64,000 nt of DNA from Myxococcus stipitatus (GTDB lineage: Bacteria > Myxococcota > Myxococcia > Myxococcales > Myxococcaceae), in the NCBI RefSeq assembly GCF_038561935.1, contig NZ_CP102770.1, positions 3,782,001 to 3,846,000 of the forward strand, written 5' to 3'. Below the pieces are notes generated by a model, which saw only the letters and a program-made list of their open reading frames with translations, was not told the DNA's origin and did not search any database. Positions 525 through 9,071 of this stretch are shown in pieces. The position numbers were made by a program, and so were the translations under genes. How positions within the stretch are numbered: position 1 is the first letter of the stretch; every line of letters starts with the position of its first letter.

Positions 525-3464
525 ATGAGACGTCTGTATTGGGTGGCGTGGGTGGCGTGGGTGTTGGTGTTGGGTTGTGAGCCCCCGTCATCCCAACGCG
601 CGCGGAGCGCCTTCGTGGTGAACCCGGAGGCCATCGACTTTGGCGCCGCCGCGGTGGGCCGCACGAAGAGCCTCAAGCTGCGGGTGACCAACGGAGGCCG
701 GGCCTCGTACCGCGTGGAGGGCGCCGTCTCCAGCATCCCCAATGTGACGGTGCCGTCCTTCGAGCCCTTCATCTTGAGCGGCGGCGGTGAGCGCGAAATC
801 GAGGTGCTCTTCAAGCCCGACGTGGAGGGCCCGGTGCAGGGCTCGCTGGAGCTCATCACGGACGCGGACTCGCGCGGGGATGTGCCGGTGCTGGGCCGGG
901 GCGTGAAGGCCTTCGTCGAGGTGCCCGAGACGGAGCTCGACTTCGGCAACGTGGCGATGGGGTTGGTGGAGATGCGGCAGGTGACGGTGCGCAACCCGTC
1001 GGACGTGGAGTCTCCACTGGAGCTGTCGCTGCAGGGCACGGACGCGGACCAGTTCACCGCGGAGCGCGGCGAGACGGAGATGCTGGCGCCCGGGGAGTCG
1101 CGGGTGGTGTCGGTGGCCTTCGCGCCCAAGCGGTTGGGCTCGGCCTCGGCGGAGCTGCGCGTGGCGGTGTGCGAGGGCTGTGAGCCCGCGGTCGTTCCGT
1201 TGCGGGGCACGGGCGTGGCGTCCAAGCTGGAGGTGACGCCGCTGCGGCTGGACTTCGGGCGGGTGGCGCTGGGCGCCAGCGCCGAGCAGTCCATCACCGT
1301 GCGCAACCAGGGCAACCTGCCGCTGCGCTGGTCGGGCGTGGAGCTGCAGGACAACCCGGGGGGCGTGTACCGGGTGGTGAGCACGCCGGTCGTGTCCGGA
1401 GGCACACTGGAGCCGGGGGCCGTGGTGGAGGTGCGCGTGGCCTTCCTGCCCACGGCGCTGGGGAAGGCGGGCGAGGGGCGGGTGGAGGTGGGCGTGCACG
1501 AGCAGGGCTCCAGCGCGCCGGGCCCCAAGGTGTCCCTGGTGGGCGAGGGCGGCACGTCGTGCGTGTCGGTGCTTCCGCGCGAGCTGGACTTCGGCGTGGT
1601 GGCGGAGGGGATGACGGCGACGCGCTCGGTGGAGGTCGTCAATCGCTGCCGGGACAGCGTGCTGGTCAACAACCTGCGGCTGGACACGGCGCAAGGGGGC
1701 TACTTCACGTTGGCGCAGGCGCCGGCCAGCATGACGGTGCCCGCGGGGCAGTCCGCCTACGTGGGCATCACCTTCAGTCCTCGCACGGGGACGGCGCGCG
1801 CCAGCACCGGCCAGCTCGCCGTCACGGTGCGCTCGGGGGGCACGTTGTCGACGGAGGCGGTGAGCCTCAAGGGCACGGGCCGCGTGTTCCAGCCCTGCCA
1901 GTTCCAGCTGCCCGAGCACCTGAGCTTCGGCAAGGTGCCCGTGGGCGCGGAGGTGTCCATGGGCCTGGTGCTGCGCAACACCGGCACGCAGCCCTGCTAC
2001 CTGGCCTCCATGCAGCTGGCCGCGGGCTCGGCTCCGTCCTTCACGTCGCGGACGGTGCGCAACGGCGTGTTGCTGCCCGGCGCGAAGACGACGCTGGTGG
2101 TGCGCTTCAAGCCGGACGCGGAAGGCCCCTTCGAAGGGCTCGCGGAGGCGTGGGTGAACCACCCGACGCAGGGCCATCCGCTGGTGGCGCTCTCGGGTGA
2201 GGGCGTGCGGGGGTGCTTCGCGGTGCAGCCCACCACGGTGGACTTCGGCCTCACCAAGCTGGCGTGTGGTCCGCGCACGCGGGAGCTGCTGGCCATCAAT
2301 GACTGTGTCGGCCCGGTGCAGGTCGCGGGGATGGCGCTGGAGCAGACGGGCACCGAGTTCCAGGTGGCGCCGGGCACTGCCTTCCCGTCGCAGCTGGCGC
2401 CGGGCGCTCGCGTGAGGCTGACGGCCCGCTATGAGCCGGTGGATGATGGGCTGGACGCCGCGGCGCTGCGCTTCCGCCTGGAGGATGGCTCCGAGTACAC
2501 GGCGGGCCTCCTGGGCAAGGGCGCGACGAAGGCGGAGCAGACGGACCGCTTCCTCCAGGAGTCGAAGGCGAAGGTGGACGTGCTCTTCGTCGTGGACAAC
2601 TCCGGGTCGATGATGGAGGAGCAGCAGAGCCTGGGGCAGAACTTCGCGGCCTTCCTGAGCGCGGCCACCGCGTCGTCGGTGGACTACCGCATCGGCGTGA
2701 CGACGACGGGACTGGACTCGTCGCCCGGCGGCTGGTCCGAGTGCCCCGGCGGCGCGCAGGGCGGTGAGAACGGGCGCCTGTTCCCCGTGGACAACTCGCG
2801 GCCCCGCATCATCACGCCCTCCACGGCCAATGCCGCGGGCGTCTTCGCGGACAACACGAAAGTGGGTGTGTGTCATTGGAACGAGCAGGGCCTGGACGCG
2901 GCGCACCGCGCCCTGTCGGACCCGCTGCTCTACAACCAGGACGACACCCGCACGCAGCAGCCCAACGACGGCAACGGCGGCTTCCTGCGGCAGGACGCGA
3001 AGCTGGCCATCATCTTCCTCTCGGACGAAGAGGACTTCAGCGCGCAGCCGGTGTCCTTCTACGAGACGTACTTCCTGGCGCTGAAGGGCAACGACAAGAC
3101 GAAGCTGAGCATCAACGCCATCGTCGGCCCCATGGACCTGGCCACCTGCCCCACGTCGAGCAGCTCCGGCAGCCGCTACATCCAGCTCGCGCAGGCGACG
3201 GGGGGCGTGGTGGAGAGCATCTGCACGCCGAACTGGGCGGCCTCGCTGGAGAAGCTCTCCAACAGCGCCTTCGGTCCCAACCGCAAGTTCCCCCTCACCC
3301 AGGTGCCCGCGGACACGGCGCGCATCGTCGTCACGGTGGACGGGGTGCCGGTGACGACGGGGTGGGAGTACGACGCCGCGACCAACAGCGTCATCTTCGA
3401 GCGCGCCACGGCGCCCGCACCGGGAACGTGGGTGGAGGTGACGTACCCGCTGGGCTGCAACTAG
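525..3464 (+). CDS. Surface lipoprotein with six ASH-like repeats and a von Willebrand A domain
   Basis: The 979-residue product begins MRRLYWVAWVAWVLVLGCEP, a short lipoprotein-type signal with a plausible lipobox VLGC. The ATG at 525 follows GGGGAGGCAGG and is preferred over the longer open frame. From about residue 30 come six repeats of roughly 105-110 residues, each opening with a P-x3-[LI]-x-FG pattern (about residues 30, 131, 235, 346, 457, 565), as in ASH/choice-of-anchor-D immunoglobulin-like folds. A vWA-like domain follows, with MIDAS residues DNSGS at 691-695. The protein is probably envelope-anchored and adhesive or scaffolding. The gene stands alone, ahead of a strong hairpin. 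Ligand and role are unknown; the domain calls are confident. Confidence 0.85.
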   Translation: MRRLYWVAWVAWVLVLGCEPPSSQRARSAFVVNPEAIDFGAAAVGRTKSLKLRVTNGGRASYRVEGAVSSIPNVTVPSFEPFILSGGGEREIEVLFKPDVEGPVQGSLELITDADSRGDVPVLGRGVKAFVEVPETELDFGNVAMGLVEMRQVTVRNPSDVESPLELSLQGTDADQFTAERGETEMLAPGESRVVSVAFAPKRLGSASAELRVAVCEGCEPAVVPLRGTGVASKLEVTPLRLDFGRVALGASAEQSITVRNQGNLPLRWSGVELQDNPGGVYRVVSTPVVSGGTLEPGAVVEVRVAFLPTALGKAGEGRVEVGVHEQGSSAPGPKVSLVGEGGTSCVSVLPRELDFGVVAEGMTATRSVEVVNRCRDSVLVNNLRLDTAQGGYFTLAQAPASMTVPAGQSAYVGITFSPRTGTARASTGQLAVTVRSGGTLSTEAVSLKGTGRVFQPCQFQLPEHLSFGKVPVGAEVSMGLVLRNTGTQPCYLASMQLAAGSAPSFTSRTVRNGVLLPGAKTTLVVRFKPDAEGPFEGLAEAWVNHPTQGHPLVALSGEGVRGCFAVQPTTVDFGLTKLACGPRTRELLAINDCVGPVQVAGMALEQTGTEFQVAPGTAFPSQLAPGARVRLTARYEPVDDGLDAAALRFRLEDGSEYTAGLLGKGATKAEQTDRFLQESKAKVDVLFVVDNSGSMMEEQQSLGQNFAAFLSAATASSVDYRIGVTTTGLDSSPGGWSECPGGAQGGENGRLFPVDNSRPRIITPSTANAAGVFADNTKVGVCHWNEQGLDAAHRALSDPLLYNQDDTRTQQPNDGNGGFLRQDAKLAIIFLSDEEDFSAQPVSFYETYFLALKGNDKTKLSINAIVGPMDLATCPTSSSSGSRYIQLAQATGGVVESICTPNWAASLEKLSNSAFGPNRKFPLTQVPADTARIVVTVDGVPVTTGWEYDAATNSVIFERATAPAPGTWVEVTYPLGCN

Positions 3465-3561: not shown

Positions 3562-4476
3562 ATGCCGGAGCCCCTCCTGGTTGCTGCCTTGGGTGACATC
3601 CACGGTCGCTTCCACCGCGTGGAGACGTGGTTGGACGCGCTGGAACAGGCACGTGGCAGGCCCGTGGGGATGGTGCTGGCGGTGGGCGACGTGGAGGCCT
3701 TCCGCCGCGGGGACGACCACCGGCGCAAGGCCGCCAAGCGCACCATGCCCGCCGAGTTCGCGGAATACGCGGACGGCATCCGCCGGGTGAAGCGGCCGCT
3801 CTACTTCATCGGGGGCAACAACGAGGACTTCGAGGCGCTGCACGACTTCCAGGACGGAGGCGAGCTGGCGCCTGGGGTGACGTACCTGGGGCGCTCGGGC
3901 TCACGGGAGCTGTGCGGGCTTCGCGTGGCCTACCTGTCCGGCATCCACGCCCCGCGCTTCATCGAGCAACCCCTGCGGCGCCCCATCACCCAGGACCTGA
4001 TGAAGCAGGCGGGGTACTTCCGCGCGGCGGAGGTGGAGCGGGTGATGCCGCTGCGGGACATGGACCTGATGCTCGTCCATGAGTGGCCACGCGGCATCGT
4101 CCAGCGTGCGCGCGAGGAGAACCCCACGCCGCCCCGGCCGTTGCCATCGTATTGGATTGGCAACCCGGTGACGCGCAAGCTGGTGGACACGGTGCTGCCT
4201 CGGTGGATGTTGTGCGGGCACTCGCACAAGGCCTTCGCGGTGACGCTGGAGGGGGTGGGGCGCCCGGCGACGCGCATCGCGTGCCTGGACCAGGCCACCC
4301 GTCCGGAGGAGTCCGTGTTCTGGCTGGAATACGAGGGCCGCACGGCGGTGCGCGCGGGGTGGGGCGTCACGGGACAGGTGGCCTGGGTGATGGACCAGCG
4401 CTGGGACATGGCGTCGCTGCCGGTGCCCTCGGTGGAGGCCGAGGGGGGCGACGCCACGGTGACGGCGCCCGCCTAG
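3562..4476 (+). CDS. Metallophosphoesterase resembling the Dbr1 (RNA lariat debranching) N-terminal domain
   Basis: This 304-residue protein has the calcineurin-like metal motifs GDIHG (11-15), GDVEA (42-46), GGNNED (84-89), HEWPRGI (173-179) and CGHSH (218-222). Motif order, the tract between motifs 2 and 3, YLG and LSGI after motif 3, and especially HEWPRGI recall eukaryotic Dbr1 (GDFQA, GGNHE, SHDWPRGI). Two differences matter. The first motif has Asp12, the canonical MPE ligand, where Dbr1 has Cys. The usual catalytic His of GNHE is Asn87. The Dbr1 C-terminal domain is not recognisable. The function is probably cytosolic phosphodiesterase or monoesterase activity; the substrate is unknown. 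Its 3' end overlaps the convergent PAP2 gene by 4 bases. Confidence 0.8.
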   Translation: MPEPLLVAALGDIHGRFHRVETWLDALEQARGRPVGMVLAVGDVEAFRRGDDHRRKAAKRTMPAEFAEYADGIRRVKRPLYFIGGNNEDFEALHDFQDGGELAPGVTYLGRSGSRELCGLRVAYLSGIHAPRFIEQPLRRPITQDLMKQAGYFRAAEVERVMPLRDMDLMLVHEWPRGIVQRAREENPTPPRPLPSYWIGNPVTRKLVDTVLPRWMLCGHSHKAFAVTLEGVGRPATRIACLDQATRPEESVFWLEYEGRTAVRAGWGVTGQVAWVMDQRWDMASLPVPSVEAEGGDATVTAPA

Positions 4477-5390
4477 AAGACGCCGGAGATGCCCGCCATG
4501 CGCGCGCCGACCATGGGCTTCCAGCGCGTGGCGGTGGGCGAGGTGCTGGAGGAGGAGGGCGCCGCGGCCTCTTGGCGTCCATGCATCAAGAGGGGGATGG
4601 CCACGCCGAAGGCCGAGCCCAGGATGGCGCCCATGGCCACGTCGGTGAGGTAGTGCTTGTCCGCGCCCATGCGCAGCAGTCCGACCGAGGCGGCCAGCGG
4701 AAGGCCCACCGCCCACATCCATTCCTGGTGCTCGTAGCCTCGCAGCGCGGCCACCGTGCCGGCGGACACCACCAGCGAGAAGGCGAGGCTGGTGTGGCCG
4801 CTATAGAAAGACAGGTTGTTGTCGCTGGGCTGCTCCGTGAGGTGCTTCTGGTCCGCTGACAAGACGTGGACGAAGGGGCGCTCGCGGCCGGCGATGAACT
4901 TCACCGCCTGGTTGGCCAGGATGGCGAGCATCGTGCTCTCCAGGATGATGGTGGCGTCCTCGGCGAAGAAGCGGTCGGGCGCGTGCGAGGAACGGACGAG
5001 CGCGAACTGCGCGCCCATCACCCCCAGCGGCACCGCGCCGAAGCCCAGGATGTTGCTCCACGTGGCCGCGCGGTGACGGGACGCGTCGGTGTCGCCGGCC
5101 AGTCCCCTGCCCCAGCGGTCCAGGCGGTTGAGCCTGTCGGTGCCGTCCGGAGCCCGGTCACACCAGCGGCACTCCGCGGGGGCCAGGTCGTCCTTGAAGA
5201 GTGCTTCGCTGGAAATCCAGAGGACAGCGGAAGTGCCGGTGATGATGCCGTCCCGGGCCCAGTCGAAGCGCAGCTCATTCAGCTTCGGCGCGTCCTCGGG
5301 GGACTGGGCCAGGGCCGGCGTTGCCGGGACGAGAGCGACCAGAAGGGAAAGTGCAAGGGACGGTATGAGCGTGCGCACGTCACGCAGCAT
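4473..5390 (-). CDS. PAP2-family (type 2 phosphatidic acid) phosphatase
   Basis: The 305-residue protein starts at the ATG at 5390; the longer frame would place extra residues before a clear signal peptide ending PATPALAQ. Its C-terminal half carries the three PAP2 motifs: KFIAGRERP (K-x6-RP), YSGH (P/YSGH) and RMGADKHYLTDV (R-x5-H-x3-D). Several hydrophobic helices surround them. PAP2 enzymes dephosphorylate lipid phosphates such as phosphatidic acid or undecaprenyl pyrophosphate at the outer face of the membrane. A Cys-bearing stretch near residue 75 (CRWC) is unexplained. It is divergent from the thioredoxin fusion, with 72 bases between starts. The family is confident; the substrate is not known. 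Confidence 0.85.
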   Translation of the reverse strand: MLRDVRTLIPSLALSLLVALVPATPALAQSPEDAPKLNELRFDWARDGIITGTSAVLWISSEALFKDDLAPAECRWCDRAPDGTDRLNRLDRWGRGLAGDTDASRHRAATWSNILGFGAVPLGVMGAQFALVRSSHAPDRFFAEDATIILESTMLAILANQAVKFIAGRERPFVHVLSADQKHLTEQPSDNNLSFYSGHTSLAFSLVVSAGTVAALRGYEHQEWMWAVGLPLAASVGLLRMGADKHYLTDVAMGAILGSAFGVAIPLLMHGRQEAAAPSSSSTSPTATRWKPMVGARMAGISGVF

Positions 5391-5462
5391 AGGGCTCCGC
5401 TGGCGCGGGGCGAAGGGTTTGACTACAAGCAAGCGACTCCCATTGTCATCCGAGGAATCAAC

Positions 5463-7772: not shown

Positions 7773-9071
7773 ATGAATCGCACTCCTCGAAAGGTCGAAG
7801 TCGCGGACCCGCTCTGGAATGCCCTGGAGGCCATGAGTCGGGAGATGGGCGTGGACAAGGATGTCCTGGTCAACCAGGCCATCTTCGCGCTCGCGCGGCA
7901 GTTTGGATTCATCCAGACCACGCAGGTGAACCTCGCGGAGGCGGCCTCGTCGCAGGCGCCGGTGGTGACGCGAGAGGCTCCACGGGTCGTGGCTGCGCCC
8001 GCCGTGGTGGCGAAGGCGCTCGTCGAGTCGACACCCGCCGTCGTCGAGAGCACGCCGACCGCGGAGGTCGCCGCGCGCGTCCAGGAGCTGGTTCGCGACG
8101 TGGAAGAGAAGGAGGCTCCCCGCGCCGCTCCTGTTCCTGCCCCCGCCCCCGTCGTGGGGGACGAGGTGGCGGAGGACGAAGAGGAAGAGCCTCAGACGGG
8201 CGAGCACGAAGGTGTGCCGGACGAGATGGATGAGGACGCCTCCGCCAGCGCCGAGGCTCCCGCCGAGTCCGAAGAGGAAGCGGCCGAGGAGAAGCCGCCC
8301 GTCGATGTGGAGGCGCTCCGGGAGGCCGTCGCGGTTCGTGTCCGGGACGTCGTGAGCGATGTCGACCGGATGGTGGAGGCCGTGGAGCCGCAGGCCGCCG
8401 ACGAGGACTCGGACGACGAGGACTCCGACGACGAAGACTCGGACGACTCCGACGAGGCTTCGGACTCCGACGACGAAGACTCGGACGACTCCGACGAGGC
8501 TTCGGACGAGGGCGAGGACTCCGACGACGAAGAGGCGGACGACTCCGACGAGGAGTTGGACGAGGGCGAGGATTCCGACGACGAAGACTCCGGCGATGAA
8601 GGCGCGGACGAGGTCGCCGCGTCGAGCGAGCCCGCGATGCTGGATGAAGGTGAGGCTCCCGACACGGATTCGGCCTCCAGTGAGCCGGCGATGCTGGACG
8701 AGGAGGACCCCATCACCGAGGACCGCAAGGTGCCGGCCCCGGTGAAGCCGAAGCCGGACAAGACGATCATCGTCCAGGCCAAGCCCGAGCTGAAAGTGAC
8801 TGTCCGGCTCGACGAAGGGGAGCCCGTGGTGGTCGCGAAGGAGCGCTTCATCCTGGGCCGAGGGCCGAGCGCCGACCTGATGGTGAAGTCCGCCCGGGTG
8901 TCGCGTGAGCACGCGGTGGTGTCGCGGGATGGAACCAACGTGTTCATCGAGGACCTCAAGTCCTCGAACGGAACCTGGTTCGACAACGCGCGCATCTCCC
9001 GGCGGCAGGTGTCCGACGGTGAGGAGTACCTGCTGGGCGGTATCCGCATCACCTTCTCGCTGACGACCTGA
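7773..9071 (+). CDS. FHA-domain protein with a long acidic Asp/Ser/Glu linker
   Basis: This 432-residue protein has three parts. Residues 1-50 resemble a short ribbon-helix-helix-like or helical module (VADPLWNALEAMSREMG). Residues about 60-330 are a low-complexity acidic linker with DSDDEDSDD-type repeats and two copies of SSEPAMLDE. Residues about 345-432 are an FHA domain with GRGPSAD, VSREHA and SSNGTW, the residues that bind phosphothreonine. FHA proteins recruit Ser/Thr-kinase-phosphorylated partners, and such kinases are abundant in myxobacteria. It is co-transcribed with the thioredoxin-MORN-TPR gene, so the two proteins probably act together. FHA is certain; the N-terminal fold is a guess. 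Confidence 0.85.
   Translation: MNRTPRKVEVADPLWNALEAMSREMGVDKDVLVNQAIFALARQFGFIQTTQVNLAEAASSQAPVVTREAPRVVAAPAVVAKALVESTPAVVESTPTAEVAARVQELVRDVEEKEAPRAAPVPAPAPVVGDEVAEDEEEEPQTGEHEGVPDEMDEDASASAEAPAESEEEAAEEKPPVDVEALREAVAVRVRDVVSDVDRMVEAVEPQAADEDSDDEDSDDEDSDDSDEASDSDDEDSDDSDEASDEGEDSDDEEADDSDEELDEGEDSDDEDSGDEGADEVAASSEPAMLDEGEAPDTDSASSEPAMLDEEDPITEDRKVPAPVKPKPDKTIIVQAKPELKVTVRLDEGEPVVVAKERFILGRGPSADLMVKSARVSREHAVVSRDGTNVFIEDLKSSNGTWFDNARISRRQVSDGEEYLLGGIRITFSLTT
8400..8610. repeat. In-frame tandem repeat coding the acidic linker
   Basis: A 42-base unit encoding DSDDEDSDDSDEAS occurs twice in direct tandem, 8421-8462 and 8463-8504. Degenerate copies flank it on both sides (for example around 8518-8560). 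The period is a multiple of three, so copy-number change would alter linker length without a frameshift. Confidence 0.8.

Follow-up and report, generated by a model that had tools for sequence, protein, structure and literature searches.

Does a myxobacterial gene with the motif order of the eukaryotic lariat debranching enzyme Dbr1 encode a debranching enzyme, or does its product have another role? The question is raised by an open reading frame of Myxococcus stipitatus (3562..4476, + strand, ATG start, 304 aa). It is located in a window of 64,000 nucleotides, the whole stretch of DNA analysed here, which belongs to a genome of 10.2 Mb. The initial annotation, made from the letters of this stretch, had listed the motifs GDIHG, GDVEA, GGNNED, HEWPRGI and CGHSH in this order, with Asn87 in place of a catalytic His and Asp12 in place of the Dbr1 Cys; all five motifs and both residues are indeed found in the sequence. 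We assign the gene to the Dbr1/CWF19 superfamily of metallophosphoesterases (MPEs) and refer to it and its orthologs, which were assigned by score (E about 1e-85 or better), as type 1.

Occurrence and family placement of the type 1 gene

Matches at E 1e-6 or better occur in 75 of the 193 sampled Myxococcota genomes, 70 of which carry type 1 and five only remote relatives. Contigs of named genome records, scanned with the type 1 sequence as the sole query, contain 36 loci that match over nearly the full length with 51–86% identity (best segment), and the open reading frame is therefore a real gene. By their titles, 33 of the 36 matching records belong to Myxococcota, two are labelled Deltaproteobacteria only, and one is assigned to Comamonas; copies in other genomes of the genus Myxococcus are 75–98% identical. 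The Comamonas sp. KCTC 72670 record (L012) holds a Myxococcus-like type 1 copy with 81% identity, and perhaps represents a mislabelled genome. In one sampled genome the type 1 match (G089:C1:5535159-5536051) extends over two overlapping frames (aa 1–266 and 231–298), due to either a frameshift or a sequencing error.

Inspection by eye revealed no obvious signal peptide in the type 1 protein. Directly upstream of its gene lies a gene with ASPM-SPD-2-Hydin (ASH) type repeats (543-3464, + strand; identified by Pfam), a relative of which directly precedes type 1 in 14 of the 25 loci compared. On the other side follows a convergent PAP2-family phosphatase gene (4473-5432, minus strand; also identified by Pfam), whose stop codon overlaps that of type 1. 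In the protein encoded at 7773-9071, a long Asp/Glu/Ser-rich low-complexity stretch followed by an FHA-like domain was recognized by eye. None of the Pfam-tested neighbours (the ASH-repeat protein, PAP2, and UvrA) provided a link to RNA.

Automatic classification of the type 1 protein yields generic labels. Pfam assigns it to Metallophos (PF00149; 40.5 bits compared to a gathering score of 21.5) and detects only Metallophos and Metallophos_2 as domains, PHROGs labels it as a generic metallophosphoesterase, and the NCBIfam search of this protein gave no match. Taken by themselves, these labels would agree with an ordinary phosphoesterase whose likeness to Dbr1 is superficial. However, this reading is most improbable and was rejected, because PDB sequence search, Foldseek, and VIA all contradict it. 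In a single-sequence search of the PDB, listed to E 10, the only matches below E 1 were Dbr1, represented by five Entamoeba versions (best 2.9e-19), and human CWF19L1 (4.3e-9), while the next entry was unrelated (1.4); thus the resemblance to Dbr1 is far beyond chance. With the AlphaFold model of type 1 (23 sequences; pLDDT 87, pTM 0.87) as query, Foldseek retrieved Dbr1 (2.4e-20, TM 0.74) and CWF19L1 (1.4e-17), followed by LpxH (4.5e-7, TM 0.44). VIA also placed Dbr1 first (Z 29.4, 252 aligned, rmsd 2.8), then CWF19L1 (Z 24.3, 235 aligned, rmsd 2.8), with 2yvt as the next entry (Z 18.2, 223 aligned, rmsd 4.2); the absence of LpxH from the best 50 VIA entries listed excludes nothing. In addition to this wide gap between Dbr1/CWF19 and other MPEs in both sequence and fold, searches with Entamoeba Dbr1 (EhDbr1) and CWF19L1 recover the gene pair formed by type 1 and its paralog, type 2 (see below). 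As proposed, Dbr1 is the nearest of the solved phosphoesterases; although the Pfam label is generic, the profile and structure comparisons did not return a generic MPE as best match, and the Dbr1 signal was clear. We regard the placement of type 1 in the Dbr1/CWF19 branch of the metallophosphoesterases as firm, whereas fold likeness alone shows no function.

Type 1 is also a relative of CWF19L1/Drn1, a non-catalytic homolog of Dbr1, and this relationship had not been anticipated. According to PMC10470207, Drn1/CWF19L1 is a eukaryotic protein that binds Dbr1, and the human Drn1 is reported there not to enhance Dbr1 kinetics in vitro. The N-terminal MPE domain of CWF19L1/Drn1 (PDB 8ro2, 8ro1) has the same fold as type 1 and likewise carries an Asn where Dbr1 has its catalytic His (human GANNQE; an aligned Asn in the C. 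elegans protein). Further common features are the YLGRxG and YLSG segments and, in the human protein, an equivalent of Dbr1 Arg158. Human CWF19L1, used as query against 27 genomes of the genus, found type 1 as its best match in all 27 (3.2e-11 to 4.3e-8), and type 2 at 0.001 at best. With EhDbr1 as query, type 2 was the best match in the 23 of these genomes where it was found (7.2e-34 to 1.7e-28), and type 1 (2.8e-25 to 2.9e-19) was second in these 23 and the sole match in the other four. Residues 60–130 of type 1 match CWF19L1 (1.4e-8) better than Dbr1 (0.003). There are, however, clear differences between the two proteins: the metal site that is kept in type 1 (67 of 67 aligned sequences) is degenerate in human CWF19L1, which has E, N, S, L, and K at Dbr1 positions 16, 45, 180, 230, and 232. 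Moreover, CWF19L1/Drn1 possesses C-terminal CwfJ domains, whereas type 1 ends at 304 aa without Pfam domains beyond those named above.

The active site of type 1

For the comparison of single residues, 66 and then 67 type 1 sequences were aligned with 31 type 2 sequences and numbered according to Entamoeba Dbr1. The type 1 rows include the gene of the window, and in some cases two rows, one from each of two collections, probably represent one species; 39 of the 70 type 1 places were left out of the alignment, and the copy from genome G105 (L104) was added for the 67-row version. L002 and L068 denote one and the same type 2 gene. Asp12, His14, Asp43, Asn86, Asn87, His173, His220, and His222 are invariant in both versions of the type 1 alignment, and seven metal-site positions are conserved. 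Motif I (GDIHG, aa 11–15; 3592..3606) contains Asp12 at the position of Dbr1 Cys14 and His14, which corresponds to Dbr1 His16. Motif II (GDVEA, aa 42–46; 3685..3699) provides Asp43 as the counterpart of Dbr1 Asp45, motif IV (HEWPRGI, aa 173–179; 4078..4098) provides His173 for Dbr1 His180, and motif V (CGHSH, aa 218–222; 4213..4227) provides His220 and His222 for Dbr1 His230 and His232. All of these motifs are encoded on the + strand, and each of the residues named is found in 67 of 67 rows. Because the metal ligands are kept, it is very likely that type 1 binds two metals.

The key exchange is located in motif III (GGNNED, aa 84–89; 3811..3828, + strand), where Asn87 (3820-3822) occupies the position of the catalytic Dbr1 His91 in all 67 rows. 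Dbr1 position 90 is Asn and the Tyr64 position is Arg, each again in 67 of 67 rows. The His of the GNHE motif in Dbr1 is described as protonating the 2' leaving group (PMC10470207, PMC4176325), and Dbr1 reportedly also features an invariant Cys14 where Asp would be expected and a lariat recognition loop (Eh 130–158) with an invariant Arg158 (PMC4176325). At the position of this loop, type 1 contains a loop of similar length (3937..4023, + strand) that ends in Arg154, the equivalent of Arg158 (Arg in 67 of 67 rows of the alignment), while the other residues differ. The stretch around Dbr1 Tyr64 corresponds to a basic loop (RRKAAKRTMPAEFAEYA, aa 54–70; 3721..3771, + strand), which is two residues shorter than in Dbr1 and was modelled with low confidence. 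R55, K56, K59, and R60 in this loop, as well as R154 and E174, are invariant in a 23-row alignment of type 1. The YLGRSG...AYLSGI segment (aa 108–128; 3883..3945, + strand) is closest to human CWF19L1. No match to PF05011, the C-terminal family of Dbr1, was obtained in the type 1 protein, and none in the whole genome at E up to 10; none passed the cut-off in 14 control genomes either, so that this search had no positive control. At its C-terminus the type 1 model shows strands and a tail of low confidence, and no helical domain. Dbr1 (PDB 4pef, 4peh, 5k78) is the best match of type 1 in sequence and fold, and the two proteins share the metal ligands except Cys14 and the HxWPxGI tract, with a type 1 loop that aligns to the position of the lariat recognition loop and carries the Arg158 equivalent, but type 1 differs by the exchanges of Cys14 to Asp, His91 to Asn, and Tyr64 to Arg, and by a C-terminal domain that was not found.

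Could type 1 be a true debranching enzyme that acts on 2',5'-branched RNA or retron msDNA? In favour of this function, Dbr1 is the closest solved enzyme, a loop with the length of the Dbr1 lariat loop and the Arg158 equivalent is present in every row, the genome encodes a retron-type reverse transcriptase (RT), and Dbr1 is reported to debranch retron RT-DNA in vitro (PMC8989520). We nevertheless consider this function quite unlikely, because the catalytic His, Cys14, and Tyr64 are all replaced, the C-terminal domain was not found, and neither the location nor the distribution of RTs fits. The RT of this genome, whose best match is the PADLOC retron model RT_XIII (1.2e-149), is about 3.6 Mb distant from the type 1 gene. 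Its label as a retron RT comes from PADLOC, as its scores with the NCBIfam retron models stay below the cut-offs and Rfam detected nothing in the RT locus or the window; the genome also carries a second RVT_1 match. RVT_1 matches, which take in group II introns, were found in 66 of the 70 type 1 genomes (four lack any according to a hand count) and in 48 of the 123 genomes without it, a comparison confounded by kinship. The co-occurrence with retrons, which the initial annotation had proposed to check, thus turned out to be unspecific, and a role of type 1 as a retron partner was rejected on these grounds and because the RT is unlinked. The idea of a branched substrate has lost ground for type 1, none of whose 67 aligned rows has the His needed to protonate the 2' oxygen, and fits type 2 better.

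The type 2 paralog and more distant relatives

Type 2 (L002; G000:C1:5031141-5031989, minus strand) is an unlinked paralog with the motifs GGNHE, HDWPSG, and CGHLH that shares 34% identity with type 1 of the same genome over aa 4–250. In the PDB it matches Dbr1 with 3.6e-31, but CWF19L1 only with 0.14. The His of motif III is kept in all 31 type 2 rows, whereas each of the 67 type 1 rows has Asn there. The Tyr64 position is occupied by Tyr (24 rows) or His (seven rows), the Met231 position by Leu (25) or Met (six), and the Arg158 position by Asn, His, or Thr; the Cys14 position is Asp in both types. Compared to Dbr1, type 2 has thus retained GNHE, but contains Asp instead of Cys14 and has no equivalent of Arg158. 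Of the two, type 2 is the one closer to Dbr1 and the better candidate for a bacterial debranching-type enzyme. Of the 70 type 1 genomes, 30 also contain type 2 (E below 1e-100) and the other 40 lack it; it was not found in any of the 123 genomes that have no type 1. This distribution is confounded by kinship. A DEAD-box helicase is encoded just downstream of type 2 and on the same strand in 13 of the 21 loci examined among the 30 type 2 genomes. The one helicase tested by Pfam, directly downstream of type 2 at L115:4316-6031, has a DbpA RNA-binding domain. As the genomes are related, this adjacency may be plain synteny.

In six remote sequences from Myxococcota the motif has remained GNHE or GNHD; one of them was compared to the PDB and matched Dbr1 best (3.8e-9). 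In plasmid searches, type 1 and type 2 both matched haloarchaeal plasmids, and type 2 also matched one Arthrobacter plasmid. Four MPEs from haloarchaeal plasmids (L105, L106, L107, and L123, of which L107 is an unannotated, truncated open reading frame) resemble type 1 in their His-less motif III, which reads GNNED in three of them and GNDED in one. All four contain LSGNYAP, and HEWP is replaced by HEAP in three of them and by NESP in the fourth; they are, however, much shorter than type 1, and the segment that links motifs II and III is missing. One of these proteins was searched against the PDB and matched Dbr1 best, albeit weakly (7.6e-4). Phages yielded distant Streptomyces phage MPEs with type 2 as query, one scan of viral contigs found no relative, and another found three weak ones (26–29% identity); a mycobacteriophage MPE is the subject of PMC12287305. 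From phage searches with EhDbr1 and type 2 and plasmid searches with EhDbr1 and both types, the reading of type 1 as a phage or plasmid gene was rejected; EhDbr1 gave no match in either set. A function in defence was rejected as well: PADLOC has no match to type 1, and type 2 matches the candidate PDC-S10 weakly and in part (1.6e-8).

Phylogenetic trees gave unstable groupings of the two types with the eukaryotic proteins. Type 1 grouped with CWF19L1 in six of eight tree variants (UFBoot 95–99), and with values of 95–98 when the column of residue 87 was included; a separate tree with this column gave 98. Without this column and with all Dbr1 rows kept (two of the eight variants), Dbr1 joined CWF19L1 instead (52 and 72) and the two bacterial types formed a group (100), and a further tree without column 87 also joined Dbr1 and CWF19L1 (UFBoot 77). 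Two of the Dbr1 rows are unverified sequences; when these were dropped in addition to column 87, the grouping of type 1 with CWF19L1 returned (UFBoot 99). AU tests rejected none of the topologies tried, neither among five trees without column 87 nor among four trees with it, and the UFBoot values are therefore overconfident. In the separate tree, three of the haloarchaeal MPEs (L123 was left out) formed a branch of their own. If the branches of this tree hold, loss of the motif III His would have occurred in CWF19L1 and, among prokaryotes, on two or more branches. Because the trees are unstable and the AU tests reject none of them, we claim resemblance, and not descent, where an origin of Dbr1 and CWF19L1 from a bacterial pair similar to type 2 and type 1 might be envisaged.

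Possible functions of type 1

We tentatively favour a Drn1-like function for type 1, by analogy, as a metal-binding but catalytically crippled protein that holds its substrate and handles nucleic acids. Metal binding, a nucleic-acid substrate, low catalysis, and any partnership are features that we infer for this protein. It would dock a phosphodiester, most likely RNA or another nucleic acid, on its metal site and loop, and could then protect, present, or regulate it, in a role comparable to that of Drn1/CWF19L1 alongside Dbr1. In genomes with a GNHE-bearing type 2, the latter would be the likelier active phosphodiesterase. With the key catalytic residue replaced in the copies examined, holding a target or cutting a different one is a more probable task for type 1 than debranching RNA. 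Impaired catalysis is supported by N87 in 67 of 67 rows, with Asn fixed at the position of the family's general acid, and by the precedents of Drn1 (PMC10470207) and mre11-H125N, for which a loss of the nuclease alone is reported while other repair functions are kept (PMC2625443). The Drn1-like role is further supported by the search with human CWF19L1, which ranks type 1 above type 2 in all 27 genomes, and by the restriction of type 2 to genomes with type 1, subject to the kinship noted above. Dead enzymes, however, often lose their metal ligands, and human CWF19L1 has lost most of its own. The retention of these ligands in type 1 over a large divergence points to selection for some form of catalysis, which counts against a crippled protein. 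Moreover, type 1 cannot be merely a partner of type 2, as 40 of the 70 genomes do without the latter, and the Pfam-tested neighbours, without any link to RNA, weaken the assumption of a nucleic-acid substrate. The model for a Drn1-like role is itself unsettled, given the reported lack of an effect of human Drn1 on Dbr1 kinetics (PMC10470207).

Nearly as likely as the crippled, substrate-holding protein is an active hydrolase with a changed substrate. Such an enzyme could use a substrate with a good leaving group, for example a phosphoanhydride, or employ another residue or a water molecule held by Asn87 as the acid. The main argument for it is the invariance of the metal ligands in all 67 rows, and the invariant residues R55, K56, K59, R60, R154, and E174 (23 rows) suggest a dedicated pocket. 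The occurrence of a His-less motif in the four haloarchaeal plasmid relatives also agrees with this function, as does the Foldseek ranking, in which Dbr1/CWF19 is followed by LpxH, a pyrophosphatase with an Arg at the position of the motif III His. The neighbours examined, however, give no sign of a nucleotide or lipid pyrophosphate pathway, with the exception of the convergent PAP2 gene.

A more far-reaching scenario, which we consider rather unlikely, is that Myxococcaceae hold counterparts of both halves of lariat turnover, with type 2 corresponding to Dbr1 and type 1 to CWF19L1/Drn1. The split between the two would then predate the spliceosome and the donor would have been of a myxobacterial type, and the substrates of the pair would be branched nucleic acids, for example retron msDNA or the lariats of group II introns. 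Our literature search, which had most subscription papers and preprints outside its coverage, showed no paper on a bacterial relative of Dbr1 or Drn1 among those listed, and none on lariat debranching in myxobacteria. A bacterial pair with and without the catalytic His would offer an accessible system for studying the ancestral function of these proteins before spliceosomes existed, and would allow one to ask whether bacteria that make msDNA possess an enzyme to open it. Because Dbr1 debranches RT-DNA in vitro, msDNA is a fair test substrate, more so for type 2 than for type 1. The fixed His-to-Asn change of type 1 is the natural counterpart of the nuclease-dead mre11-H125N, whose H125 we take to be the His of the GNHD motif, and type 1 may, by analogy, be a natural substrate-trap MPE.
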